Source: Hexactinellida sp. DTS-2022
Taxonomy: Eukaryota; Porifera; Hexactinellida
Assembly: GCA_028753945.1 (NCBI GenBank)
Contig: JAPNXP010000002.1
Coordinates: 12,090,001-12,154,000 of the forward strand
Length of the DNA: 64,000 nucleotides
Reading direction: 5' to 3'
The notes under the pieces are model-generated. The model searched no databases. It was not told where the DNA came from and was given only the letters and a program-made list of their open reading frames with translations. Both the position numbers and the translations under genes were made by a program. This document shows positions 2,539 to 55,585 of the stretch, one piece after another (the stretch's first letter is position 1; each line of letters starts with the position of its first letter).

Positions 2539-4202
2539 CTAGTTCTGCGCACACTCTCCTTCACATGCACAAAGAGCAGTGCATTGCAGATTAGCTCTTT
2601 TGCATTTGCATTGGCCACGACAACCTTTTTTGCAGCCACAACAGATCAGTTCGTAACACGCTTTCGCTGCTTCGGGGAGACTAGTCCAGTTTGGCTCATA
2701 CAGTGCTTCATCACTCTTAATCCACCCCCAGTTCTCGGGTGAAGGAAGTACATGAGCTAATTTCTGTGTCTGTCCCCATATGTGCCCACCTTGGTAGGAT
2801 GCTCTTTTGCTATGTTGCTCAAGTGCAGCATATGTGGGTGGGATGGCTCCTGGTGATCGTTTCTTGGGGAACAACTTTCTTCTGGATTCATTTATCTCAG
2901 TACATGTGGTTGTGCGGTCATACATGAGTATAACAAATCTTTCAATGATGCTCAAGCACTCAAATGACACATAGCTAGGAGCCAAGCTAAACTAAGCAGG
3001 GCGTCAGTAAGCTGTGGAAAGGCCTTCCATGCTGCCCAGGCAGTTTTCTTACCATGTCCAACAAAACTTGACACAGTATCACAACCAGTCAATGCGTGAA
3101 CCATTGGAAGAGCACGTGAAGCTTCTTTTCCAAGAGCAGCACCTATTTTATGTGCAGCCAGAAAACGATACCGCTTTCCAGTTCCAAAGGCAACCCAGAG
3201 CTCAGATTGTGCTGGTAGTGTTTGTGAAACCATTATGGCAAGGACTACAACGTCTGTGTCTACTGTACGTATAAGTATTTTCTGGTGGTTTTCTGAGGCA
3301 TGTGTTGCATGTAGCAGCAAGCGAGTATCTGCCTCTTCATGGAGGCATGGCATCAATGTTACTAGATCTTTTCGAGGAGGAAAGCACAAAACTTGCTCTT
3401 CATTAGTAACAATGATTTCTTTTTCTTGTTCCTGGATGGAGCTGATGACTGATTTCGATAGGAACTCCGAGAGTTCTTTTTTATTTTCATCTACACGCAA
3501 ATAATCCTGCCAATTTCTTGGTATAGGTGCAGAGCCACTGACTCGTCTGCGCACACCTTTTCCACGTTTGGCTCTAGCAGTGCCTTTTAAGCTGTCATCA
3601 ATATACCTGTCCCATACAAGATCAAGGCGTTTTACTCGTTCAAGTTGTGTTCTGACATAGGGAATGAAAACATGATGGGCATAATCATCAAATGTTTTTG
3701 TTGTCCCCGGTTTCAACATTTGCACTGTGACAGATGCATCAATTATTGTACAGAAGAAACACAAGTCAACACCAATTTCAGAAATGTCAAACGATCTTGA
3801 TCTGGTACGCTTACAAACACCTGCTGTATCCTTACTATCAGGATAAATTTTCAGATCTCTCTTTTCAGCTCTTTTCAGCATTGTGTTGTTGAATTGCAGT
3901 TTGCAAGTTTTATGCCACTTAGCATTGTTTGCTGAAAGAGTCTCTTCAACACCATGACCATCGTCTAATCTTGCTAACTGCAAAGTTCTTGGCAGTTCTC
4001 CTAGTTCATGAAATCTGATTATATTTTCAGCCAGTGATTTGTATCCAGACAGCTTGTCAAGTTGTGTTGAGTGACTGGGACATTGAAATGGTTCATTTTT
4101 GTCATATTGACATATAACACAAAGATTCCAGTTAGTTTGAAATGTAGTGAATTGGGATGTGGATGACTGTGTTGCATCCACAAGTTTAAATATTTTGGCC
4201 AT
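2539..4202 (-). pseudogene. PIN/FEN1-like protein with C-terminal CXC (tesmin-like) cysteine tail, frameshifted
   Basis: The first part (4202-2952) starts MAKIFKLVDATQ and carries an early Cys-rich stretch (CVICQYD, later CFFC). It then shows acidic motifs EEADTR, DTDVVVLAI and TGCDTVSSFVGHGKK, spaced as in XPG-I/PIN nuclease folds such as FEN1 and asteroid proteins. The second part (2985-2539), in another frame, continues with FVILMYDRTT and ends in a dense Cys tail (CCGCKKGCRGQC, CKCKRANLQC, CACEGEC) like a tesmin/TSO1 CXC unit. The two parts overlap by 34 bases, so a single indel explains the break. From memory of the family, intact relatives are much longer between CFFC and HHVFIPYV, which suggests an internal deletion. 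It is the only gene between the long inverted repeats. Its biochemical role is unknown; it may be the element's recombinase or an accessory nuclease. Confidence 0.75.
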
Positions 4203-4265
4203 TAGTACATAGGATAAAGGCCTTCAAATACCTAGCTAATGCATTTGGAAACGATGTTCATAAAA

Positions 4266-4344
4266 TACCTTATTATAGGAAATTAACGCGAATTGCTCCA
4301 ATTCGCGTTAATTTCACGGCGCGTTAATTTCCTATAATAAGGTA
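4266..4344. repeat. 79 bp palindrome with TACCTTATTATAGGAAATTA ends
   Basis: Both ends are TACCTTATTATAGGAAATTA in inverted orientation, and the middle contains repeated TTAACGCGAATT/AATTCGCGTTAA words. A related sequence lies at 15770-15851. It looks like an end-only MITE inserted just upstream of the PIN-CXC gene. Confidence 0.7.
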
Positions 4345-4361
4345 TGTAGCCGAATTATTAG

Positions 4362-4857
4362 TCATATGACCATATATGCACAAAATTGGAACCAAATTGT
4401 CTAACTCATTTCTGTACTAGATAGAACTTAGCTTCCAACAGTAAAAATTTTCAGAATAGCCGACTTCCTATACCTATATAATACATTTGGAAACGATATT
4501 TCGTAAAATAGCGGAATTATTAGTCACATGACCATATATGGACATAATTGAACCAAAATGGCTAACACATTTTCTATACTAGATAGAGTTTAGCATCCAA
4601 CAGTAAAATGTTCAGAATAGCCGACTTCCTATACCTAAATAATACATTTGGAAGCAACACAAGGTTCGTTAGCTGAGTACTATTAGTCATATTACCAATT
4701 TACCATATATGGGCATTAAAATGGCACAATTGGAACCATAGAGCTCGAATTCTATGTGCCTCCCGATCTTAAATCATTATAAATAGAATTTTCTAGTTGC
4801 ACAACAAATTTGATGCTTTTATCACTAAATGCACAATTGTTAAGCTAATCCGCCCCA
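4362..4857 (-). repeat. Right long terminal inverted repeat of the PIN-CXC element
   Basis: Reverse complement of 1755-2255 over nearly its full length. The inner border lies near the tail of the 79 bp palindrome at 4266-4344. Confidence 0.8.
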
Positions 4858-5015
4858 GCTACAATCTCTCCTTCTATCGACAAAATGCAAGATTAGTAGG
4901 TCGAAATTGGCTCATGCTTGATCTGAGATATGTTTTCACAAGTTTAGCTTTGAAAAACTTCGCTTACATGTTACTATGCTGACACACACGGTGAGAAATA
5001 TCCTCAGAACCACAA

Positions 5016-5985
5016 TTAAGTTTGTAAGCATCTCAGAAAATCCCTGATTATCAACCATTCAAGTAAGTTTAGCGAATTGAAGTAATCTTTAGCTACATCA
5101 TTTCCATTTTCAATAGAACTTCTTATTAAGCAACGATATCCCCCGACTTCCTTTTTCAAATCCTCGCCGTTCAAATCCTCGCCGTCAAAATCATTATATA
5201 CATCCACAAGCGCATCAATTTTTTCATTAATGAAAAATTCTCTCTCAATTCATCAGAATGTCTATGCTTAAGAATACAAATCTCTTATTAACTATGTTCA
5301 ACTGCAAAAACCTCTTATCTATTTAATTCTTTAAACGGTCGATCACTTCAATAATTTCCCGTCTAATTTCTCCTTGCAGAGATAGTCCGACATCGCGGGC
5401 CTCCTCTCCATCCAATGGATACCATATTCCTATACAGTTATAATACACTTTTCAGCTCTATCATTGCTAATTATTGGGATAAAGAACAATTCTCCATTTT
5501 TCAATGCACTTTAAGTAATCCATGGTACTCAAATTTTCGCTTAGTACTCAGGCCTTGTATATCGAAGGTCACGATGCAATATTATTCTTCTTAAAGCCTT
5601 TTCTAATTTGAATTTCTTATTTAAATTATAACTAATTCTGTGCATGATATGAGCCGAACAGAGATGTAGGACTGTTATAATATTATCACCTAAGTTCTAA
5701 TTATTAGCTATAAATTCTCAACAATATCGGATATAATTTAAGATATAAAATTTGTTAAACGCTAAACATGTACTGTGTATCATAGGCTTCATAGCCCAAC
5801 TAAAATCTATCTCCACTTTCTAATTTTTAGCTCTTTGTGTTAAATAATTTTACACTCAAACACCATTTATTCAGGAAGTGCGAGATCTCATCGGTGCTAT
5901 GATCGCTACTTATCATTTGAGCTAATGGGATGGAACTGGTGGAAAACTCCGGGTGTTGTATTGTAAGGGCATATTAATATATTTT
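5016..5985 (-). pseudogene. Decayed MULE-like transposase of the OTU-element family (oldest copy)
   Basis: No long open frame survives, but minus-strand words in shifting frames match the copy at 20600-21805. They are YALTIQHPEFSTSSIPLAQMISSDHS (about 5955-5875; given here as one conserved run split by frame), then EIDFSWAM and MIHST (about 5810-5770), then LHLCSAHIMHRI (about 5690-5650). These correspond to the region after the first catalytic Asp, the second Asp (DFSW) and the C-x2-H element of MULE-type DDE transposases. The small open frame at 5207-5016 (DFDGEDLNGEDLKKE) lies downstream and may be a C-terminal piece. An end of another repeat family sits inside at 5423-5573. Confidence 0.55.
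5423..5573 (+). repeat. Partial copy of the GGTCACG-ended repeat family (family M)
   Basis: It ends AGGCCTTGTATATCGAAGGTCACG. It shares TAATCCATGGT and the preceding ~110 bp with 14740-14868, 40958-41640 and 59400-59560. Only one end of the element is present. Confidence 0.6.
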
Positions 5986-6368: not shown

Positions 6369-7058
6369 TTAGAATAATAAACCCGCCTTTATCTTATCCC
6401 AGGTCCAAATCATTGAAATGGCCTTTATATAGTAGGCTATGACTTGAATTATATTATCACCTGAATGTTTCCCTTTGAATCTAGTACACGCCAACATAAC
6501 ACTTTCTAACGACCATTCCAATATAAAGTGACCCGTAATGCCGATATATGATCTCATTTGGCGATTGGACCAAATGTCTAAAGTTACACAGGCGTTATGG
6601 ACCATTTTCAATTTCTCATCTATTTGAGTTTTCACATCTATCGAGTATTCGAAAGATGTTTACGACATGGCATCTGGTAGCGAGGATTAAGAGTATTAAC
6701 TAATTTCTTAAAATTTACACTCTCTAGGATGGAGAGAGCCATAAGTCTCCTGCAATGAAAGTGACCAAAGCATCAGTTGTAGAGATCTGTCGTGGGTCAT
6801 CGGAATTATTTACTTTGCAAGGATGATCGATAAAAGAAGTTGTTAAGTGCAATTGTTCTGTTTCTTCCATATTAAGAGGAATATTTATGGAGGGGTGTTT
6901 TCTTCGAACGTGCCTTATTAAATTTGTTGTAACTGCGGTACAACCAGTTATAGCACTGCCACAGTGATTGCAATTGCCTTAAAAATTCCATCGATATCTT
7001 CTGGTAGATCATTATGGTTTAATATCACAGGTAGCTTTTTGTCATATTCACTCGCCAT
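6369..7058 (-). pseudogene. BED-finger hAT transposase remnant (ZBED type)
   Basis: Read on the minus strand from an ATG at 7058 (MASEYDKKLPVI). A BED zinc-finger-like segment follows at about 6975-6890 (CNHCGSAITGC, then LIRHVRRKH). Next comes the ZBED-hAT signature LVNTLNPRYQMPCRK near 6700. The longest open stretch (6635-6369) contains VTLDIWSNRQMRSYIGITGH, the start of the hAT RNase H-like core with its first catalytic Asp. Several stops and frameshifts separate the pieces, and the C-terminal dimerisation domain was not found. It is a dead fragment. Confidence 0.65.
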
Positions 7059-22772: not shown

Positions 22773-23410
22773 GAACTCACAACTAACAAGCTGACACTCT
22801 AAGCTGAAAAATTAAATTGCTTCTAACCATAGACTATTATTACAGTTTAGGAATGACAAAAATGGCTATCAGTCCTCCCTGTTTGGGGAGGAGAAGAAGC
22901 TATCTTAGACATCAGACCGTAAATTTGGCAGTCATCGCAACCAGATGCCAATAAACCTACCAAACTCATCAAGTAGAAGAAAGGCAGTGTATCATTTATA
23001 GTGAGATATCATTAAATTATAAACAAAGGACATAATAAATTCTTATCAATGGTATTATTAGAGTTGACAACATATTCTACATTATGGATATTGGATAGGT
23101 ATAGTATATGCAAATCATCATTGTAAGCCGATTTAGTGAAATTTATGTTAATAATATTTTTTCAAAAATGAATATTTGTTTTGAAATTTACATGCCAGGT
23201 CTAAATTTGAGCGAAAATTGCTAAGTCCTTTTAAGGAATTTTGACATTTGGGATGATATATGGGTTGTCACAACTTTCATCTTTCCGCTGATGTGATAAT
23301 TTTCACGTACAGCGTAACCTTTTGAGTTTTTAGCATAAACGTGAGGTCTTCGAATTTCCGTTAAGATAACACTCGTTATATAAAACGAGTGTGAAGTTGG
23401 CTTAGTATTC

Positions 23411-23975
23411 AACCGAGCACACTTTAAATCTCTATTTGATCCGCTTCCTGTCATCCGATTGATTCAAATTTGGTATCATTAGAAAGACTAGCGAAATAGG
23501 TTCCATTAGATATGAAAATTAATTTCAAAATTTCAAAAATTCCCTTAAAAAAAATATATTTACAAATTTTTTTTCGAGCACACTTTAAATCTCTATTTGA
23601 TCCGCTTCCTGTCATCCGAATGATTCAAATTTGGTATCATTAGAAAGACTAGCGAAATAGGTTCCATTAGATATGAAAATTAATTTTAAAATTTCAAAAA
23701 TTCCCTTAAAAAAACAAATTTTACAATTTTTTTTTCGAGCACACTTTAAATCTCTATTTGATCCGCTTCCTGTCATCCGAATGATTCAAATTTGGTATCA
23801 TTAGAAAGACTAGCGAAATAGGTTTCATTAGATATGGAAATTAATGTAAAAATTTCAGAAATTCCTTTTAAAAAAAAATTTTACAAATTTTTCTTCGAGC
23901 ACACTTTAAATCTCTATTTGATCCGCTTCCTGTCATCCGATTGATTCAAATTTGGTATCATTAGAAAGAGTAGTA
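23411..23975. repeat. Left array: about 3.7 units of ~155 bp
   Basis: Each unit starts CGAGCACACTTTAAATCTCT and contains TTTGATCCGCTTCCTGTCAT and ATTAGAAAGACTAGCGAAAT, followed by an A/T-run spacer. Unit borders are at about 23417, 23574, 23738 and 23898. Confidence 0.85.
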
Positions 23976-24223
23976 ACTTACCTTTGTGTACAAATACATT
24001 GTAAGTCGTAAGGGCTCTACATAAATGGGACTTGTTATTTTGGAAAAAATTTCAATGTAATTAACCAATGTAGTGACGAATTGTAAACAAGATCATTAAA
24101 AAAAACTATTTATACAAAGAAATTATACTAACTATCATATTTCCCAAATTTATATTCATTCATATCATATATATCATCACTCAACAATCACCACTGCTTC
24201 AGGCAACTTTTACTTAGTTCTGT

Positions 24224-24705
24224 ATGGAATCGTTCCAAGGTAAGTTCCATATAAAAAAAATTAATGTGTAAATAGAAGCAATAAATCCTATTCTGTATTA
24301 TTTCTTTAGAATTACCTCATGATCTACAACAATTCGTAGACATAATAACAAACAGGTCGAAATCATTCCCCTTGTTGAAAAAAGACCTCTCTAATAGTCA
24401 TACACTTCCGAATTCTGTTTGGGGCAAGCAAATTTCCGAGGTCGGTTATTAATTATCGTAAAACAAAAGATTACCTAATCAAATCAAATATGCGCAATAA
24501 TAAGACTTGGGGTACAGACTTGAGTTATTCACTGTGGCCATGCTTTTTAAAACTGATATATGGGTGTATACAAGTGACCTGGGCAATAAATGGATGGTCT
24601 TTTCAGGAAACGGGGCCAGTTTGGATGAAATAACAAAGCCAGCTAATCAGGCTGGATCTTTATACATTAGACATAGTAGCAACCATACGAACCTATTTTA
24701 GAATT
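24224..24705 (+). pseudogene. OTU-domain gene remnant with a small intron; catalytic Cys segment lost
   Basis: A start exon (24224-24239, MESFQ) ends at a consensus donor GTAAGT. After a 70 bp intron with a TTTCTTTAG acceptor, exon 2 begins at 24310 (ELPHDLQQFVDIITNRSK, then LLKKDLSNSHTLPNSVWG) and meets stops near 24450. The open part 24507-24701 encodes RLELFTVAMLFKTDIWVYTS, then KWMVFSGNGASLDE, the second half of the OTU fold. The family box GDGNCLF with the nucleophile is absent, so an internal deletion is likely. The final His motif is altered (SNHTNLF instead of NHYEP). Confidence 0.6.
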
Positions 24706-24845
24706 ATATCAATGCTAATTTTTTGGTATATTCGTATGTTTAATTAGCTTAATACTATTTTTCATTCATTCATTAAATACTACCAGGTACTCTCTTACTA
24801 TTCATTCGGCGCACAATTCTGTATTGAAATAATAATAATATAGAA

Positions 24846-24975
24846 AAAAATTAAAAAGATAAAAAACACAAAAAATAAAACAACTACAAATTAATTAAAA
24901 ACACAAAAAATAAAAAAGTACAAAAAAATTAAAAACACAAAAAATAAAACAACTACAAAAAAAAGAAAATATAAC
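24846..24975. repeat. A-rich tandem repeat (~45 bp units)
   Basis: The phrase AAAAACACAAAAAATAAAAC recurs three times with ACTACAAA spacers. Confidence 0.7.
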
Positions 24976-24988
24976 AAAAAATACAAAC

Positions 24989-25275
24989 AAGCTCTATCAA
25001 CATCTACATCAACTCTATCAACATCTACATCAACATCTCTATCAACATCTCTATCAACATCTCTATTAACATCTCTATCAACATCTCTATCAACATCTCT
25101 ATCAACATCTCTATCAACATCTACATCAACATCTCTATCAACATCTCTATTAACATCTCTATCAAGATCTACATCAACATCTCTATCAACATCTACATCA
25201 ACATCTCTATCAACTCTATCAACTCTATCAACATCTCTATCAACTTCTCCATCAAAATCTCTATTAATTGCTACA
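24989..25275. repeat. 12 bp minisatellite (ATCAACATCTCT)n
   Basis: About two dozen units of ATCAACATCTCT occur with point variants ATCAACATCTAC and ATTAACATCTCT. The array is inside the OTU element. Confidence 0.9.
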
Positions 25276-25489
25276 TCAACAAACTATATTGACAACTAAT
25301 TGTTAACAAAATTAAGTTTCAATTTAGCATAATTAAAGGTAAAGTGATTATATATGTATAAACTATCCCATTTTATCAATTTTTTGTATTAAATGACTAT
25401 TGAATGAATTACGATTATTAAACAGCCAAACAAAATTTACAATATATTATTCATATTGATATAATATTAGAATAGTCTCTATTCTTCGA

Positions 25490-26040
25490 ATGATACCAAA
25501 TTTGAATCATTCGGATGACAGGAAGCGGATCAAATAGAGATTTAAAGTGTGCTCGAAAAAAAAATTGTAAAATTTGTTTTTTTAAGGGAATTTTTGAAAT
25601 TTTGAAATTAATTTTCATATCTAATGGAACCTATTTCGCTAGTCTTTCTAATGATACCAAATTTGAATCATTCGGATGACAGGAAGCGGATCAAATAGAG
25701 ATTTAAAGTGTGCTCGAAAAAAAATTTGTAAATATATTTTTTTTAAGGGAATTTTTGAAATTTTGAAATTAATTTTCATATCTAATGGAACCTATTTCGC
25801 TAGTCTTTCTAATGATACCAAATTTGAATCATTCGGATGACAGGAAGCGGATCAAATCGAGATTTAAAGTGTGCTCGAAAAAAAAATTGTAATTTTTTTT
25901 TTAAGGGAATTTATGAAATTTTTAAATTAATTTTCATATGTAATGAAACCAATTTCGCTAGTCTTTCTAATGATACCAAATTTGAATCAATCGGATGACA
26001 GGAAACGGATCAAATAGAGATTTAAAGTGTGCTCGGTTGA
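25490..26040. repeat. Right array: about 3.5 units of ~155 bp, inverted
   Basis: Units end AGATTTAAAGTGTGCTCG and contain ATTCGGATGACAGGAAGCGG, the complement of the left array. Confidence 0.85.
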
Positions 26041-26095
26041 ATACTAAGCCAACTTCACACTCGTTATATAAGTTAGAAAAATATTATGAAAGTCT

Positions 26096-42370: not shown

Positions 42371-44953
42371 CAGGGGCGGCGCCAGCACAGCCCACTTGGG
42401 GGGGCGAAAGGGGGGCGGACCAATGCACGGGAGGGGCAAACCCAATAGTTGTAAACATTCCAAAAATACACATTCAAACCAAAGTCGATAATTTAAATAA
42501 CAAACTAAGTTAAATCATCTGTCCTATAATAGTATACGGTGGGGCAGTTCAGAAAAACGGCTAATTATGGACTCTCTGTCCAGGGCGTACAGCATTTCCG
42601 CATTAACATTAAGCACTCCTATATTAGACAAGCGAGTGTTGCTCATTGTCGAGCGAAGGAAGTTCTTGATCCTCTTCATAGCACTAAAGGAGCGTTCTGC
42701 TTGCGCTGAGGTGATCGGAATAGTGACAGCGATGTGCAACACCTTGTCCATCACGCTTAAAACACGTTTGTGGGGCTCGATGAAGTTGAGCATTTCTATT
42801 AGGTCTGAGGGAAGATCGTCACCTCCATTCTCAAAAGTAATGCGCAATAGGTCGATCTCAGTCTTCACGGCGTTCTGTTTCTTTGCCAAGCCATAAAATT
42901 CACACATCAACAAAATTTGTTCAACGTTGAGAAACGATTCACTTACGGGCGTCAACGCACAGATTCCGCCGTAGACTGCCTGATTCTCCTCCGATAGAAA
43001 TCTTCTCTGCAGCTCCACCAAACTCTTGTTGCACATGGGAACAAATACTTCTCGCCGGTAGTCTTCAGACGAATTTAACGCTGCTGGGGAACCAGGAATT
43101 GTTCGAAGCCGGCGCACATGGAGCTGAGGAATATCACCTGCCTGAACAATATCCTCCGCCTGCTTGTAAATGTCGTCCCATACTTCGTCTACGCTTGGAA
43201 TCTCAGGCCTCTTCAGCCATCTGCAGACCGTTTTGATGGCTTGCAGGGCCTTTTCCAGAGTCTCACTTTTCCCTTGGAGTTCTACACTAGCATCCGCACA
43301 AATTTTTAGCAAGAACTTAAAAATGCACAAGTGGATTACAAAACTGGTATTGAGCTGAGCCATGATGCACCGTGCAGTGGCACCACGTTCCCCGGAAACG
43401 TCCATGAGATCCTCTAGAGTCTAGAACATCGATCACTGCGGCAAGTGTGGTCGAGAGAGTCTCACAGGCATCGTGCCGACACAGCCAACGTGTATCAGAA
43501 AGAGAGGGTATCTCACGCGGTTGGGTATGAGGAAAGCGGGACTTCTGAGCCTTGATGTACATTTCATGGACTTTCGGCGAGGAGAGGAAGTTATGTAGTG
43601 ACTGCAGCAGTGTGAAAAGGTCGTTTGCCCTGGCTATATTGTGCACAACATCGACAATGACCAAGTTCAATCTATGGGCAAAACAATGCACATAAATTGC
43701 ATGAGGGCAAAGCTCACGGATTCGCGTCTGGACTCCAGAGCATCGTCCACTCATTACAGCTGCACCATCAAAACACTGTGCGACACAACCAAGAAGGTCA
43801 ATTCCACAATCACGAAGACTTTTAAGCAAAGTTTCGCACAAACCAGCAGCGGTGAGATTCTCACAGGCGGTGAAACTGAGAAATGACTCTTTGATGACAT
43901 TCCGAGAGTGGATCCCATCCTCCTGCACTACGTATCTCAACACTAGTGACATCTGCTCCTTGTGACCAGTATCACGAGATTCATCAGCGATGATGGCGTA
44001 GTAGTTCCCACTCGTTTCAGCTGCTATTTGCTCCCTGATTAACCCAGCGGCTGCATGGATGATATTATCCTGGATACTGTGGTGCGCATACTTCGCATTA
44101 TGTGGGCCTTCTTGCAGCTTCCGAGCAACAATAGGGTCATGGCGAGCCACAAGATCCAGGATCGCAAGGAAATTCCCCTTGTTAATGTGAGAGGGCTCCT
44201 CTTCAGATTCTCGATGACCTCGGAGAGCAATCGCCTGCTTACAGCACAAAGATACAACATCGACAACCGCACCGATGTAGTGGCGGTTTTGCTTGATTAT
44301 CTCCTCGTTCTGGTCACTCAACATGGCCGCGATGTTTCTCGAATCGTCCAGTTTCCACTGCATCCAGGCCGCCATTGCGTGCTTGTGCGTATCCGAACTG
44401 TTGTCTCTGAAAACTTCTCAACTGCCTTTCTCCAATTGCTGAATCCATTCGTACACCAAGCTAAACTCACAATGCCCCGGCCAAAATGTCTGCAGGCATG
44501 ACAAAAGGCAGACTCACGTGTTTGAAAATACTCGAGCCAAGGAGAATCCGTAAACCATTCCTTGCGAAACCTTCGTTGATGCGAGTCTGCTGGGGACTTG
44601 AGCAACTCCACTTGAGTGGGGCCCTCTCTGGCTGTCTTAGATATATCGTTGGGTGCACTCTCTGAGCTGATCGCATCATCTGGAACTATATCAAAATGAG
44701 ACCTCTTGGAAAAGAAGCTGTGAGTGGTTGCGAACGTTTAGACATTAATATTTTGTGGAAAGAGTGCTAATTAATAAATAGTATACAAATATTTAATATG
44801 AGATAAACAATGCATGATACAGCTCAAACAACATTGATTTTTAGAGGGAAAATATTTCGGAAGTTTGCGAAATCCCGCCCCCCCACAGGGGGGGCGGATC
44901 AAAATCGCGGGGGGGCGGCCGCCCCCCCCGCGCCCCCCCTCGCGCTGCCACTG
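42371..44953 (-). mobile_element. 2.6 kb hAT element, near-complete, GC-richer than its surroundings
   Basis: It starts CAGGGGCGGCGCCAGCAC and ends CGCGCTGCCACTG. The exact 8 bp duplication CTGACAGG lies at 42363-42370 and 44954-44961. The right end has poly-G/C runs. The coding part is much GC-richer than neighbouring DNA. It encodes one transposase on the minus strand. Confidence 0.92.
42524..44745 (-). pseudogene. hAT transposase of the ZMYM1/TTF-finger type, frameshifted
   Basis: The ATG at 44745 opens MSKRSQPLTASF; a lost base near 44710 shifts the frame. A TTF-type zinc finger follows (EWFTDSPWLEYFQTRESAFC, then HACRHFG; about 44565-44490). A second shift lies near 44360. Then 44375-43317 carries the catalytic core: AIIADESRDTGHKEQMSLVL (first Asp), VAQCFDGAAVMSGRCSGVQ (second Asp) and HCFAHRLNLVIVDV. 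After a third shift near 43400, 43405-42524 holds the helical insert and the C-terminal dimerisation motif TSAQAERSFSAMKRIKNFLR (catalytic Glu in AERSFS), ending at 42524. All domains are present, so only three small indels inactivate it. It is probably a young copy. Many plus-strand open frames here are shadows of this gene. Confidence 0.9.
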
Positions 44954-48463: not shown

Positions 48464-48826
48464 TATATCGACGGAGCCATCAAGTGCTACTTTTACGCGA
48501 GCTGATATAGCTATTAAAATCACTTTACTCCAAAGTACCAAACCATCCGTCCTCCAGAAGAATGAACTTTCCAGATGGCAAAGGGTTCAGGACCGTTTTG
48601 AGTTGGTGTCATATCAGGGAACAAGTATCCTGTATCTTAAGGGCAAGAAAGATGGAATATCCAGAATAGTGTTGGCAATAGAAGAGCTGTACGATAAATT
48701 GGCCTCGCTTCATTGGCTCGAAGGTAACCATACAGGTAGAACCAAGCTCTACAAGCACGCTGCTCTGAAATATCATGGCGTGACAGAAAAGATTTGTGGG
48801 CTTTTTGTAAAAACTTGCCATGTATG

Positions 48827-49360
48827 ACGAGTGTGAAGTTGGCTGAATATTCGACCAGCACAACTTCAGTCAATAAGTTGACTAACTTGCTGACATCAGA
48901 TTTAAATGATTTCTGCAGCATTCGAAAGAGTAGAAACCTACGTTTATGAAACTAGCATTACAATTTTTAAAAGAATTCATTTTCGACAAAAATAATTGAC
49001 CCCTGACCCGCACTAGTTGACCCACTTTTTAATATACTAATACTAAATTATCAAGCGCTGAAATTATGCATGTAAACTCCAGAGACATCTACGTTTATGT
49101 TATAGAAATTTCATCAAAAAATATAATGTACTTTTTGAAATATTTACGTTTGAATATTCAAGTTGTCAAAATCGAGTCGCCATAAAATCCTACTATGTAT
49201 ATATGCATACAGCTAGCAATAGCGTCAATTCCAGTTTGACGTAGCGTCGTAGACAGTTAGAAGTGATTAAATTAGATCACAAGCTTCAAGATGATATGCT
49301 ATTACGTATTAATAATTCCTTATGAAGAGGATAATGTCAACTCCCGCCTCTCATTCTATT
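48827..49360 (+). repeat. Left ~525 bp TIR of the OTU/transposase element
   Basis: It pairs with 53425-53946. Shared words include ACTAACTTGCTGACATCAGA, GTTGACCCACTTTTTAATAT and ACTCCCGCCTCTCATTC at the inner end. Differences are few. Confidence 0.9.
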
Positions 49361-49753
49361 AATAAATTTGAGGTATTTCAAAGCATGTAATCAATCACCC
49401 AAGTCCCGCAATAATAGTAAACGGGCTAATTTACTCCATCAATTAATTAATACTAAATTTTGTAGACTGAATAGCCTTTTTCACAAATGGAGGGAGAGTA
49501 TTGTTTTAATTATTGCAAGGAGATGACCTCGGTCATAAATACGATAATAAATAATTTGATAGTTTAATTAATTGGATGACTTATTAGATTTCAAAGATTA
49601 TACAAAGCATTGATTATATAATTCAAAATTCTACATAAAGTGTACACAAATATCATTAATACACTTATAAATTAATCGTTAATCATTAATCGTTAATCGT
49701 TGTCCACAGAATTAAAATAGAATAACCATAAATTGCGCGCGAAAATAAATTAT

Positions 49754-50276
49754 CTAAAACTTCGTCTCTATCTCCTTATCTGATAATTCCAAGACTGGTT
49801 CATAATGATTACCAGTATGTACAATGTAAATAGATACAGTGGTGTTGGCGGGTGGTGTATTAATTACCTGATCTATACTAGCACCTTTTCCAGAGAAAAC
49901 ATTCCATGTGTTACCCGTGTCTTTCGAAAAGACCCAAATATCTGTCCTAAATAAGAGACCTGCTGCAAATAATTCTAAATCTCCGCCCCATTTGGCATTA
50001 CTCTTCATACCAGTTTTAGCCACATAATCTCCGATATTTCTGTAAGTATTTGGGTATTTATTATTATTTCACACATATTACTCTTAATTTATTTATCATA
50101 CTATCAACGATAAGTTTCCGTATTTCGTGACAATTATCCGAACAACCCGTAATCCAATATGCTATAGAAGAAAACAAACAATTTCCATCTCCGGGGACAC
50201 AATAAGTCTTGCTAGGTACATACTCAATCAGTGGTCTCTTTACATTACTGTTAATCTTGCTATGTACTGGCGACAT
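49754..50276 (-). CDS. OTU-family cysteine protease (deubiquitinase-like), two parts
   Basis: The first part (50276 to about 50082) carries PSKTYCVPGDGNCLFSSIAY, the catalytic Cys box (D-G-N-C) of OTU proteases. It then reads WITGCSDNCHEIRKLIVDSM. The second part (about 50039-49754) carries IGDYVAKTGM, NAKWGGDLELFAAGLLFRTD, TWNVFSGKGAS and the catalytic His in HTGNHYEPVLEL. Between them is a ~42 bp gap with a GTAATA donor-like site and a CTTACAG acceptor-like site. The phase I read is off by one base, so either the splice points differ or there is a small indel. OTU enzymes remove ubiquitin or related modifiers. In this element it may protect the transposase or blunt silencing, but that is inference. 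Related OTU pieces lie at 19600, 24224 and 62259. Confidence 0.75.
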
Positions 50277-50436
50277 TAAAATTCAGATTATGACAAATAT
50301 CTATCTGACCAGGTTGGGAGAGTGGCTTATAGGGTGGAAGGTCGTAATTCATTGTACAAATTTCAATTATATCGATGTCAGTGATAATATCAACATCAGC
50401 TGCCTGGAGGACCACATCAGGGGCTGTGGATACGAC

Positions 50437-51639
50437 CTATTTTTCTAGAATTCTCTTTTTTCGCGGAAATTCAGAGTCCAAAATCTTTCTCTTTAAATCT
50501 TTAGCTCTTTTTGACTGTACATTATAATTTAAAGTTTGATAACATTTTTCAAAAACTTTATCTACATTATCTACATCTGGGGTTATATAACTCCTATGAA
50601 TTTTGCTCCTCCGAGACCATTCCTCCTTACAATCTTCTTCATTAGGTACTTCTAGTTTACGCTTCTTTGCTTTAAATATTTTAGAAGCCAAGGGATGAAA
50701 TCCAAATTTGAAAGCAGAAATTATATCATGAATATTACTATGCATTGTACGAATAAAATTACCAGGTCTGATGTGTATATTAGATTCGAATATTGGATGT
50801 TTAACTATCCTAAACCAATTTTCTGCTATGGCATCACTTGCTTTAGTTTCTTCTTGATTACCAGTTCGAGATAATATAATTCCAGTCCATAAAGGCAAGA
50901 TTGGCATATAGTATGTTAACAAATATTCTAAAATATGGGGACAATAAGAGCCATTTAGCATACTAATTTTATCAGTTTTTAAATCATTACGATTCTTAGT
51001 TACTAGTGAATCAAAATGTCTACCAAAGGGTGATTTAGCACGATATGTAGTGACGTTTTCTACTTGCGTCAAAAGTTGCGTGCAATCATCTTCAGGTGGT
51101 TCCACATAGTCAAGTTGATATAGCATGTCGCCTCTAACTAAACCATTTAATTCCACTAAACTGGAGCTGACAGTATCTCTATAATACTGTATAGATAAAA
51201 TATTACTTAATCCTACGAAAATCCTATTTATCTCTTGCATACTTTTTGCTTTTAAAATTACAGCAAACAAGTGTAAAATAAATCTATTCCACTGTTCCAA
51301 ATCTATCATGTTTTCAAATTTCAAAAAGTTTTCAAAATAATTTGGTCTTCGGTAACCATAAAAATTGCAACCATCAACCCATAATTGAGCCTGGCTATTG
51401 TTGTAATAATAGTATGCTTGTGTATTACTAATATTAGTACTATTGCTAAGATCAAATGAAACACGCTCGTCCTTTTGCTTAAGTTCATGGTAGGTAACCA
51501 AGTCAGATGCTGAGGAAGACCAAATTAACAATAACCTGTCATCCTGCAAATCAGGTTCAATGGATTCCCATGAAATTTCTTCACGAACTACACGGCTAAG
51601 ACTAGATAGGGACACACATAGGGATATTTCTCGCAGCAT
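50437..51639 (-). CDS. MULE-like transposase, C-terminal part (400 aa) without the Asp-bearing core
   Basis: The protein runs from MLREISLCVSLSS to SEFPRKKRILEK. Its middle (FAVILKAKSMQEINRIFVGL) aligns with RAIEMTSINNLFKSLC of the remnant at 21300-21070. TYYMPILPLWTGIILSRTGN aligns with LPLWSGIILGP there. KASDAIAENWFRIVKHPIFE is a plausible catalytic-Glu motif of MULE type (compare TNNDLESFH and NNGAESYHK in the two other MULEs here). The C-terminus is basic, with KAKKRKLEV and RKIL(D) segments. The first ~130 residues do not show the LDATGSIV and CSAH motifs of the relatives, so the catalytic Asp segment is missing or replaced. The open frame is long and uninterrupted, which suggests recent function or young age. 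Confidence 0.6.
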   Translation of the reverse strand: MLREISLCVSLSSLSRVVREEISWESIEPDLQDDRLLLIWSSSASDLVTYHELKQKDERVSFDLSNSTNISNTQAYYYYNNSQAQLWVDGCNFYGYRRPNYFENFLKFENMIDLEQWNRFILHLFAVILKAKSMQEINRIFVGLSNILSIQYYRDTVSSSLVELNGLVRGDMLYQLDYVEPPEDDCTQLLTQVENVTTYRAKSPFGRHFDSLVTKNRNDLKTDKISMLNGSYCPHILEYLLTYYMPILPLWTGIILSRTGNQEETKASDAIAENWFRIVKHPIFESNIHIRPGNFIRTMHSNIHDIISAFKFGFHPLASKIFKAKKRKLEVPNEEDCKEEWSRRSKIHRSYITPDVDNVDKVFEKCYQTLNYNVQSKRAKDLKRKILDSEFPRKKRILEK

Positions 51640-51764
51640 AACAGAGGTCTGTAACGAATGCTAACCATTCAGGGCGGAGAGAGTCGAGACTTAAACTAAC
51701 GAAAAATGACATATTTTGAGAGGTGGAATCAGGATTAATTTATCGTTCTAACAATTCACGGATA

Positions 51765-52091
51765 TTATTGGGAATTATTCTTCCATTTCAAATAGAGTTT
51801 AACGCGTTTAGCTTGACTATTACGTCCATGAACTTTCTTAGAAATTAATCCCCAAATTGAATCTGCGACACTAGGACTGGTAGAAAGGGAATTCATAATC
51901 TCACTGTATGATTGTGATGTGGATTCAACATATAAAAGTAATTGCTGGAGTTCTGGAGGTACTAAAAAAAAGAGAGTTAAATGAAAATAGGGAATAGTTA
52001 TGCATATGGTATTTTCCTGAAAAAGTATCGTGGAATTACCTCCACCCAGATTATTACTAAAGAAAAATGCGGCACATACTATGCCCAGCAC
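51765..52091 (-). CDS. Probable N-terminal part of the same transposase, unknown fold
   Basis: It contains PPELQQLLLYVESTSQSYSE, then VADSIWGLISKKVHGRNSQA and a basic RVKLYLKWKNN end. It lies upstream of the 400-residue frame with a 125 bp gap on the same strand. The first third is hydrophobic and may be non-coding read-through. No named domain was recognised; a DNA-binding role is only a guess from the basic end. Confidence 0.4.
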   Translation of the reverse strand: MLGIVCAAFFFSNNLGGGNSTILFQENTICITIPYFHLTLFFLVPPELQQLLLYVESTSQSYSEIMNSLSTSPSVADSIWGLISKKVHGRNSQAKRVKLYLKWKNNSQ

Positions 52092-52420
52092 ATATTCAGA
52101 TAATTCGGTAATTAGAAGCGATTGTTAGTTCATACTTAAATGATTAGTCAGGAATAATATCATAATAATTTAATTAATTAAGTGAATCCAATATATTTAT
52201 TTTAACATTGGACATAAACGAATATTGTTTGAAACGAAAGAGTAGAACGATATATATAAAATAGATTTGGGCCCTAGATAAACATATCAATAAATTTACT
52301 TTTAGAAAAGCTGGTTCCAGGGAAAGATGTGTTGAAATTTCGAGCCATGTATCGTGGAGTCGTAAATGTAAATCTAAATTGTAGAAACAATTAATCAATA
52401 TAATAGAAGTCAATATAATA

Positions 52421-53154
52421 CAGGGGTTTTTAACTTTTGCATCTGTGAAAATTCGCACGAACACCTTAATGTTCATGGGATAAATTTTATTGTCAGAACT
52501 CTTATATAATTAACAAAATATTGATGTAGAGTTGGAACTGCTTTTTTCAAGAACTAGAGAAACCCTAGGCTAAGATTTTGAGAGACAACAGGTCCAAAAA
52601 TCCAATCTATTCACTTCACAATTGATGATGCCAGTATATATTGTATTTTATGAATAATTAAATAATTTAAAATACTAATCCATGAAGATAATCGTTTCGT
52701 GATCCCTCCCAAGGAGGCCTTTGCGATCCTCAGTAGGGATGCACCGGATCCACTTTTTTGGATCCGGATCCGCTTGGAAAGAAAATACAGTTATATTAAG
52801 TTTGTAGTAATTGATATATGGTAAAGTAAAACTTCGTTAGTATGAAGACATTAAAATTGTCTCAATCTGTCAATCAGAGATATTTAATTAATTTATGTCT
52901 CCTATTACTTCATGAAAATTATAATAAATTTGAATTGGCGTAGAGTATGTCACTATTGAATAGTTTTTGTAAGTAATTAGAGGTTACTTGGATGAATATA
53001 ATTAATTAAATAGTTGATACACATACAGATTCGGATCCGGTGGATCCGGTAACCTCATCTCGGATCCGGCCGGATCCCGGATCCTCCACAAATGGGGAAA
53101 TCCGGCCGGATCCAGGATCCGGTGCACCTCTAATCCTCAGGTTGAAAAGCCCTG
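52421..53154. mobile_element. hAT MITE (CAGGGGTTTTTAAC ends) hosting a second MITE
   Basis: It starts CAGGGGTTTTTAACTTTTGC and ends GGTTGAAAAGCCCTG. The duplication ATATAATA lies at 52413-52420 and 53155-53162. Without its guest it is about 327 bp and belongs to the same family as 61098-61537. Confidence 0.88.
52734..53132. mobile_element. 399 bp hAT MITE (TAGGGATGCACCGGATCC ends)
   Basis: It starts TAGGGATGCACCGGATCCAC and ends GGATCCGGTGCACCTCTA. The exact 8 bp duplication ATCCTCAG lies at 52726-52733 and 53133-53140. It is the innermost insertion of the stack. Confidence 0.93.
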
Positions 53155-53424
53155 ATATAATATATGTAAAACCATAAATCTTATGTAATTAGAAGAAACG
53201 AACCTCAAGAGTCAATACTCACAAGTCAAAGTTAGAAATGGTAAAGTTTCTTGGCTGTATTTGTATTGGATCAATCAATCGCGCGATTAGATAAATAAAA
53301 TAACTGCGGGCTTTGAATATGATTTCGGAAATTAAAAGTTTCGTTTTGATGATGAAATAGTTTATTGATTCAATAAGCAAACAAGCATTAAATAGTGTTG
53401 CTATATCAAAGGACTATTCAAAGA

Positions 53425-53946
53425 ATGAGAGGCGGGAGTTGACATTATCCTCTTCATAAGGAATTATTAATACGTAATAGCATATCAGCTTAAAGCTTGT
53501 GATCTAATTTAATCACTTCTAACTGTCTACGTCAAACTGGAATTGACGCTATTGCTAGCTGTATGCATATATACGTATATAGTAGGATTTTATGGCGACT
53601 CGATTTTGACAACTTGAATATTCAAACGTAAATATTTCAAAAAGTACATTATATTTTTTGATGAAATTTCTATAACATAAACGTAGATGTCTCTGGAGTT
53701 TACATGCATAATTTCAGCGCTTGATAATAGTATTAGCATATTAAAAAAGTGGGTCAACTAGTGCGGGTCAGGGGTCAATTATTTTGTCGAAAATGAATTC
53801 TTTTTTAAATTGTAATGCTAGTTTCATAAACGTAGGTTTCTACTCTTTCGAATGCTGCAAAAATCATTTAAATCTGATGTCAGCAAGTTAGTCAACTTAT
53901 TGACTGAAGTTGTGCTGGTCGAATATTCAGCCAACTTCACACTCGT
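53425..53946 (-). repeat. Right ~525 bp TIR of the OTU/transposase element
   Basis: Reverse complement of 48827-49360. An incidental open frame runs from here into the integrase gene (53852 onward); its first 31 codons are TIR sequence. Confidence 0.9.
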
Positions 53947-55585
53947 CCATGTATGTCACTTAAAGAAAGCCAAGAAGTCTCTTAAGAGTGTATTTGTGAA
54001 ACCCATCACATCCACCGATTTCCTCAGCAGGGCACAGATGGACTTGATCGATATGAGCGATCAAAATCTCGAGGTCAACTTGTCCGCTGATGGGGTTACA
54101 CCCTACAAATATCTGTTAGTCTATTTGGATCATTTTACCAACAAGATCAACCTGGTTCCGCTTAAACGTAAGTCGGCAGAAAAGGTTGTGAGAGTTTGCT
54201 CGATTTCTTTTGTGACTCTGGACCGCCACACATTCTCCACTCAGACAATGGTAGGGAGTTCTCTAACAATCTCCTCTTCACTACCCTAGCAACGAAATGG
54301 CCAACAATAAAATAGTCCACGGAAAACCCAGACACCCAGAGTCCCAGGGTGCTGTGGAAAGAGCTAACCGCGATATCTAAGACGGCCTTTTCGGAATGAT
54401 GCGAGATAACAACAACGACCATTGTTGGGTGAAGTACCTAAGGTGGGTACAGTGGAATCATAACACCAGCTATCATACTGCTATCCGGATGACTCCTTAT
54501 GAAGCTGTCTATAACAAGAAGCCGCCGATGGGACTAACGAATATTGGCATACCCCATGAATTCTGGCCAGACATTAATACTGAAGATGATATCGAGGTCT
54601 TCCAGAGGAACATTGTACAACCTGGTCTTGCAGAGGTTCTAAACGCAGAGTTAGAAGTAAGCGAGTATCAATCGTATTCGTCTATTCCATCTCCTCTTTC
54701 GAAATTTCCCACTCAAATCGACGAGTACGAGAATGATATTTTGACAGCTATCCCAGTTGGGACAATTGTCAGTGACAATTTGGTGTCCTTTCATTCAAAT
54801 ATCACACTCCACCACCTCTATTAAGTTCCTTTGTCTCCGAAAACCAGATTTCAGATGAATTACTTGCGTGTAATTATTACACATCTACAAGATCTCCGTT
54901 AACTTCACCAGATCCTATTCAGGATAGTTGTTCGATTTCCACTCTAGACTGTGTTGTTTGTGGAGAAGTAACTTCTGGTGCACACACATGTCCACGCTGT
55001 TTTGGCTTCATCCACATCATATGTGGAAGGTCTGAGGGAGAAGAAGGCTACGGAAGCAGTGTAGTGTGACCCGCGTGTGACTTTTCATCCAGAAAAGAAA
55101 AGTGCAACAAGATGAGGGCTGGTATCAAGCGCTGTCAGGAGAAACAACAAGACAGAATGCTTAATACTGCCTCGAAGAAATTCAAGGATGCTGTAGTGGG
55201 AGATTCAGTATTAATCCCTATCTCCCGGCCTTAAAAGATGCACTCATTGGGTCCTCGCAACATCCTTGGATGTATTACGAGTAGAGATGAATCTACATAC
55301 TCCATCGGCACGACTCAAGGAACACTGGCCGTTAATTATAGTCGTAATCAATTTGAATTATGTCCAGCTAACATTCTCTCGTTGGATTCCGTTCCTCCTG
55401 TAACGATTACCCAGACAGAGGCAATGCAGAGTGCTTCTTTCGGTATTTCTAGCAGTTCAGCTTGCAGATGTAAGCATTGCAAGACTCAGAGATGTCCCTG
55501 CAAGAAATCAGGTCGAAGCTGCAATACCAAGTGTCAAAGGGGACACGTATGTCTTAACAAACATGTTGAGTCATCTAATCCTTAG

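Follow-up and report, generated by a model that had tools for sequence, protein, structure and literature searches.

In animals, the DDE transposase of Ginger1 transposons ends in a C-terminal OTU or Ulp1 domain, and an active role of this domain in transposition, for example via DNA repair, has been proposed (PMC2836005). Helentrons carry OTU or VTD domains on the rolling-circle RepHel protein; the paper on the VTD domain notes that no test of OTUs from transposons had been made, and proposes that Helitron enzymes are protected from degradation (PMC9741609). For MULE, Rehavkus or Foldback elements no report of an OTU was found in the accessible parts of the open-licence PMC literature, and the word OTU is absent from PMC6446971. 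Here we describe a transposon family in the sponge Hexactinellida sp. DTS-2022, starting from a stretch of 64,000 nucleotides (assembly GCA_028753945.1, contig JAPNXP010000002.1, positions 12,090,001 to 12,154,000 of the forward strand), hereafter the window. A first-pass annotation had presented the element at 48827-53946 as a MULE-like transposon with an OTU protease gene and a transposase gene; it is a decayed copy of a family whose longer relatives encode the two as a single protein.

Single frames, read from stop to stop, were found in the related loci L030 (1,255 residues), L031 (1,260), L039 (1,349), L040 (1,245), L042 (1,251) and L043 (1,254), and for seven of the core matches listed the frame measures exactly 1,255 residues; these are near-identical open copies. 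When six proteins of five elements were scanned with Pfam, five had an OTU match near the C-terminus (E 6e-10 to 0.018, four of them above the curated cut-off); the sixth, without an OTU match, was the N-terminal frame of the locus L029. Taken by themselves, all 13 OTU regions have a PF02338 match, and Asp102, Cys105, Trp173, Glu178 and His234 are invariant in all 13 rows of the OTU alignment. These rows are 25-98% identical to the first, or 25-47% once near copies are set aside (L047 of L045; L042 and L032 of L031), L033 having been dropped for a stop inside its OTU. The domain sits at the extreme C-terminus, preceded by a variable linker. The transposase core was aligned in 31 rows from 39 core-match loci, leaving out three shorter than 200 residues and five near copies; among rows with a residue at the position, the first Asp (D1) is conserved in 27/28, the second (D2) in 30/31, the Cys in 29/31, the His in 31/31, the Trp in 22/23 and the Glu in 18/19. 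There are 74 residues between the Asp residues and 220 before the Glu, with a long helical insertion. We read the OTU and the transposase of the longer relatives as one fused protein of about 1,245-1,349 residues, not as two genes. The anatomy of the family, that is, an N-terminal region, a zinc-type domain, a DDE core and a C-terminal OTU, is quite probably as described here.

Searches of the genome gave a concordant picture. The best 150 of 448 candidates were scored for a core query of 167 residues and the best 150 of 741 for an OTU query of 231 residues, so that part of the non-co-occurrence is artificial; equal frame length of a core and an OTU match was taken as the same frame. An OTU match lay within 4 kb of 86 of the 150 listed core matches, with equal frame length in 29. 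Among listed core frames of at least 600 residues the two counts were 40/48 and 29/48, at 850 residues or more 30/32 and 26/32, and at 1,190 residues or more 19/19 and 18/19; random places had an OTU within 4 kb in 1.1% of cases (16 of 18 contigs). The search for further elements by their tips, proposed in the first-pass annotation, returned 150 exact matches to the 17-base tip in the 112-Mb genome and none to its reversed control. Among 100 listed of these 150 tips there were 22 opposed neighbouring pairs closer than 15 kb, 9 of which measure 2,811-2,813 bp. All eight pairs of at least 4 kb contain a listed OTU match and four of the eight a listed core match, and none of the 14 shorter pairs contains either. 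Because of this partition, neither is the OTU unique to the window's copy nor do full-length elements with these terminal inverted repeats (TIRs) lack both genes, the two outcomes that the annotation had set against itself. Its claim that the OTU and the transposase belong together in one TIR-bounded element stands, with the corrections that relatives carry a fused protein and that most of the core is missing from the window. As a separate observation, one 2.8-kb unit (L001/L002) that was read fully contains fragments of this core, all of them broken; it sits in a larger inverted repeat with units of about 190 bp that is perfect for 309 bases past the tips.

Exact target site duplications (TSDs) of 8 or 9 bp flank 9 of the 12 elements inspected; L035 and a second element of the window have an 8-bp TSD with one mismatch, L001/L002 has no TSD, and none was found for L043. 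The DDE triad, the CH motif and a W between D2 and E, the pattern expected of MULEs, are present in the family core. At E up to 1, none of 15 members had a match to PF10551, the MULE transposase profile, nor did any of the six proteins of five elements. An hhalign comparison with ten PF10551 MULEs of this genome gave a probability of 0.2% (E 0.26 and 0.28), even though one such comparison placed D1 and D2 in register. The predicted model of the core weakly resembles DDE transposases, and that of the zinc-type domain weakly resembles WRKY domains; a zinc domain of the WRKY/GCM1 type is typical of MULEs, and an IS256-like core fold would be a further mark of them. Only about residues 21-130 of the first AlphaFold model (699 residues) were used, because its pLDDT was 50.1. 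With Foldseek, nothing in the PDB reached 1e-3, and there was a single match in a viral library, the bracovirus protein O92526, at E 6.1e-7 but with a root-mean-square deviation of 27 Å. A PDB sequence search with the core profile gave nothing at E up to 1, no relatives turned up in IMG/VR when it was scanned with the alignments of the core and of the OTU, and Pfam found no PHD finger at E up to 1 in the six proteins of five elements. A minisatellite beside the 3' TIR is a mark of Rehavkus. Tandem-repeat scans of L043, L035 and the window element identified minisatellites in two of them: L043 has 2.0 copies of a 335-bp unit at 6393-7047 and L035 has 6.5 copies of a 156-bp unit, while the window element has no array of this kind. 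Judged by TSDs, TIRs and catalytic pattern, and by a zinc-type domain and a fold that are only weakly recognisable, the family appears to work like a MULE/Foldback transposon, whereas the sequence tests (PF10551 and the profile comparison) do not place it among the MULEs. The label "MULE-like" is apt for the TSDs, TIRs and catalytic pattern and lacks the backing of the sequence tests. Membership in Ginger1 was rejected, as the TSDs are 8-9 bp of other sequence and not CCGG/CCGT.

The window copy has the following features.

48818-48826, unstranded: left TSD CCATGTATG
48827-53946, coding strand minus: whole element, a deleted copy of 5,120 bp
48827-49364, unstranded: left TIR with tip ACGAGTGTGAAGTTGGC, by self-alignment
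49754-50023, minus: OTU remnant with WGGDLE and His boxes, PF02338
50064-50276, minus: OTU remnant with Cys box GDGNC, PF02338
50437-51639, minus: 400-residue frame, an N-terminal part joined by deletion to a C-terminal transposase part
51277-51281, minus: junction of the 1,596-bp internal deletion, with a 5-base overlap; D1, D2 and CxxH gone
51765-52091, minus: remnant of the N-terminal region, equal by eye to the start of the 403-residue frame of L029
52734-53132, unstranded: nested insertion of 399 bp, not in L029, by alignment to L029
53415-53946, unstranded: right TIR, by self-alignment
53947-53955, unstranded: right TSD

The borders proposed in the first-pass annotation were confirmed: the 9-bp TSD is exact on both sides, ACGAGTG tips are present, and the 17-base tips of the two ends are identical. 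Within the window the tip was matched four times at up to 3 mismatches (mean expected 0.02). Long TIRs are present as proposed, at a length of about 535 bp rather than 525 bp; self-alignment pairs 48826-49364 with 53415-53947 at 95.6% likeness over 544 columns. Excision leaving one TSD copy restores a single frame across the flanks, reading KTCHVCHLKK, in agreement with the proposal that an interrupted frame rejoins in register and that the element sits in an integrase-like mobile gene; the name "integrase" given to that frame is a reading by eye, because Pfam had no match in either scan of the flanks.

The interior has fared less well. The 400-residue frame, previously taken for a long intact transposase, matches the genome in two blocks (residues 1-122 and 118-400), which lie about 1.6 kb apart in a sister copy (C16:1461900-1464688). 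This sister, L029, is a 6,298-bp element on C16 with the same tips, TIRs that are 99.2% alike and the TSD ATTTGAGA. Alignment of the window element to it revealed that the window lacks L029 positions 3764-5359 (1,596 bp), a stretch that holds DATG, EIDYSW and CSAH; D1, D2 and CxxH lie in this part. The frame is a deletion product without most of the catalytic core. Nor is L029 a single open frame: two frames, of 403 and 946 residues, overlap in it. Both boxes claimed for the OTU match PF02338, slightly below its curated cut-off (Cys box, E 0.0028; His box, E 1.1e-4), but the domain is broken: matches to the 231-residue query are split into three pieces, one with 5 stops. An intron between the two OTU frames was considered and dropped, as L029 reads through the same stretch in one open frame. 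Since D1, D2 and CxxH are deleted and the OTU is split with stops, the window copy is a decayed, non-autonomous cut-and-paste DNA transposon; the idea of a working copy in the window was rejected. An Rfam scan of the window gave nothing at gathering scores. The 399-bp nested insertion is rich in GGATCC, has tips TAGGGATGCACC and lies between copies of an 8-bp duplication, ATCCTCAG, at 52726-52733 and 53133-53140 (counted by eye); from its tip and TSD size we take it to be hAT-like.

For the intact relatives we propose that the N-terminal region is followed by a zinc-type, WRKY/GCM1-like domain that probably binds the long TIRs, and that an RNase-H-like DDE core, bearing the CxxH and the W that mark the MULE/hAT group, would cut and join DNA with staggers of 8-9 bp. 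The C-terminal OTU cysteine protease would take ubiquitin off the transposase itself or off repair proteins of the host at the ends of the cut. The transposase might then escape degradation, or the break be repaired favourably, with the OTU present in cis on every transposase molecule. What the sequences offer as a basis is the fusion, the cut-and-paste borders, two active sites that have both been kept, and an OTU under constraint in two of the close pairs. We consider a ubiquitin role of the OTU about an even prospect. Because the OTU is part of the transposase, several near-identical open copies exist and the informative pairs show constraint, the proposal that deubiquitination protects a transposase or steers repair can be tested directly in one polypeptide.

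Selection on the OTU was assessed by Nei-Gojobori style counts in five close pairs, four distant pairs being saturated or nearly so. Purifying selection is seen in two of the five, and the other three do not help. For L031/L042 the ratio is 0.05 in the OTU (3 replacement and 15 silent changes), 0.21 in the core and 0.39 in the N-terminal region, and for L030/L040 it is 0.165, 0.22 and 0.295, respectively; L030/L043 differ by only 2 changes in the OTU. On the other side, L039/L041 has a ratio of 0.96 in the OTU and 0.47 in the core, with GDRNC for GDGNC in L041, and L045/L047 has 5 replacement and no silent changes in the OTU. Together with the fact that transposons commonly capture genes, the L039/L041 result favours the view that the OTU is a mere passenger, one that was picked up accidentally and is retained only through in-frame fusion. 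That view is nevertheless very unlikely in our judgement, for in L031/L042 and L030/L040 constraint on the OTU exceeds that on the core, and the OTU is kept among relatives whose OTUs, near copies apart, have diverged as far as stated above.

The OTU might also act on something other than ubiquitin, either cleaving the transposase as a polyprotein into a DNA-binding/DDE part and an OTU part or serving as a non-enzymatic binding domain. Its place at the extreme C-terminus behind a variable linker would suit such a role; however, known OTUs are isopeptidases, and a role in binding would not need the Asp, Cys and His that are kept in 13/13 rows, making this alternative improbable. That the 400-residue frame and the OTU of the window copy are two separate working genes could be argued from the open frame and its ATG start, but this was refuted by the deletion relative to L029, which leaves the frame without D1, D2 and CxxH, by the two-block matches and by the broken OTU, and we assign it a negligible likelihood.

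The genome holds at least 150 OTU matches (the best 150 of 440 candidates scored), among which, in the 150 listed, frames of 227 (29), 226 (10) and 228 residues (5) recur. One frame of 227 residues, L078:1483-2166, lies 0.7 kb behind a frame with a GPY-like motif, noted by eye and without integrase support from Pfam. Its OTU aligns with 9/9 family OTUs tested (158-211 columns, 53-74 bits), in six of the nine including the WQ..KC..L.L.F stretch that precedes the Cys box, whereas for the OTUs of L080 and L081 the scores are no higher than 22-32 bits with the family and 36-39 bits with L078. This comparison comprises one integrase-like element and two comparators, each of which may be a host gene or part of a transposon. 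It is possible, if rather doubtful, that the OTU is peculiar to transposons and has passed as a module from one transposase lineage to others unrelated to it, L078 being an integrase-like (Ginger-/Gypsy-like) repeat; different transposons would then share a deubiquitinating device required for transposition. Of 150 listed OTU matches, 1 lies within 5 kb of one of the 150 listed PF10551 MULE matches, against 1.3% for random places; within these listings, stand-alone OTUs show no link to the PF10551 MULEs. Elsewhere in the genome, the MULE transposase of L057:1-1767 (PF10551, E 1.1e-14) has a RING finger at its C-terminus (PF13920, E 2e-10), so that a further domain of ubiquitin-system type is found on a transposase here.

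The window contains one more element that shares the 17-base tips.

23385-26064, unstranded: second window element, same 17-base tips

Both of its arms contain 161-bp tandem repeats, accompanied by 12- and 35-bp repeats, and it is probably a deleted, foldback-like derivative, because all three kinds of repeat recur in the OTU element L035. It is flanked by TATATAAA and TATATAAG, with CACTCGT, the end of a tip, directly adjoining the left side. At L003:1501-1541 a 41-bp element consists of two tips with 7 bases between them, and its 9-bp duplication TTGGAATAT is intact. Several other transposon remnants lie in the window, among them minus-strand frames at 42524-44417 that are hAT-like (43317-44417 matches DUF4371, E 5e-21). 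The genome further gave two matches to nuclear-receptor DNA-binding domains, a family known only from animals, which points to an animal host, and none in a wnt search, in which 14 control genomes were equally silent; the two results might suit an animal that branched off early.

Rehavkus and the Foldback NOF elements form one class, MULE-NOF. The sponge family shares with them a 9-bp TSD, long TIRs, one open reading frame and tandem repeats in or before the TIR of some copies, here L035 and L043, but a PHD finger is reported for Rehavkus (PMC6446971 and PMC4079207) and none was found here in 6 proteins. With MULEs, including Phantom, Muta1 and Tm1, the family has in common TSDs of 8-9 bp, TIRs of great length and a DDE core in which the CH motif is present and a W stands between D2 and E, as well as, probably, a zinc domain near the N-terminus; in contrast, mosquito MULEs have 416-554 residues against about 1,250-1,350 here (PMC5225508, PMC3169594 and PMC6446971). 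The spacing in Muta1, from positions given in PMC5225508, is 68 + 135, compared with 74 + 220 in this family, which moreover has no PF10551 match in 15/15 members and carries a fused OTU. Helentrons resemble it as animal DNA transposons with a deubiquitinase-type domain, although theirs is on RepHel and not on a DDE transposase. Ginger1 is alike in having the OTU at the C-terminus of a DDE transposase, but that transposase is a Gypsy-type integrase with GPY/F and its TSDs are CCGG/CCGT, not the 8-9 bp seen here, while the CxxH and W marks and the long helical insertion in the core belong to the sponge family. A fusion of OTU and transposase was already known from Ginger1; the sponge family adds a second DDE-transposase lineage that carries it.

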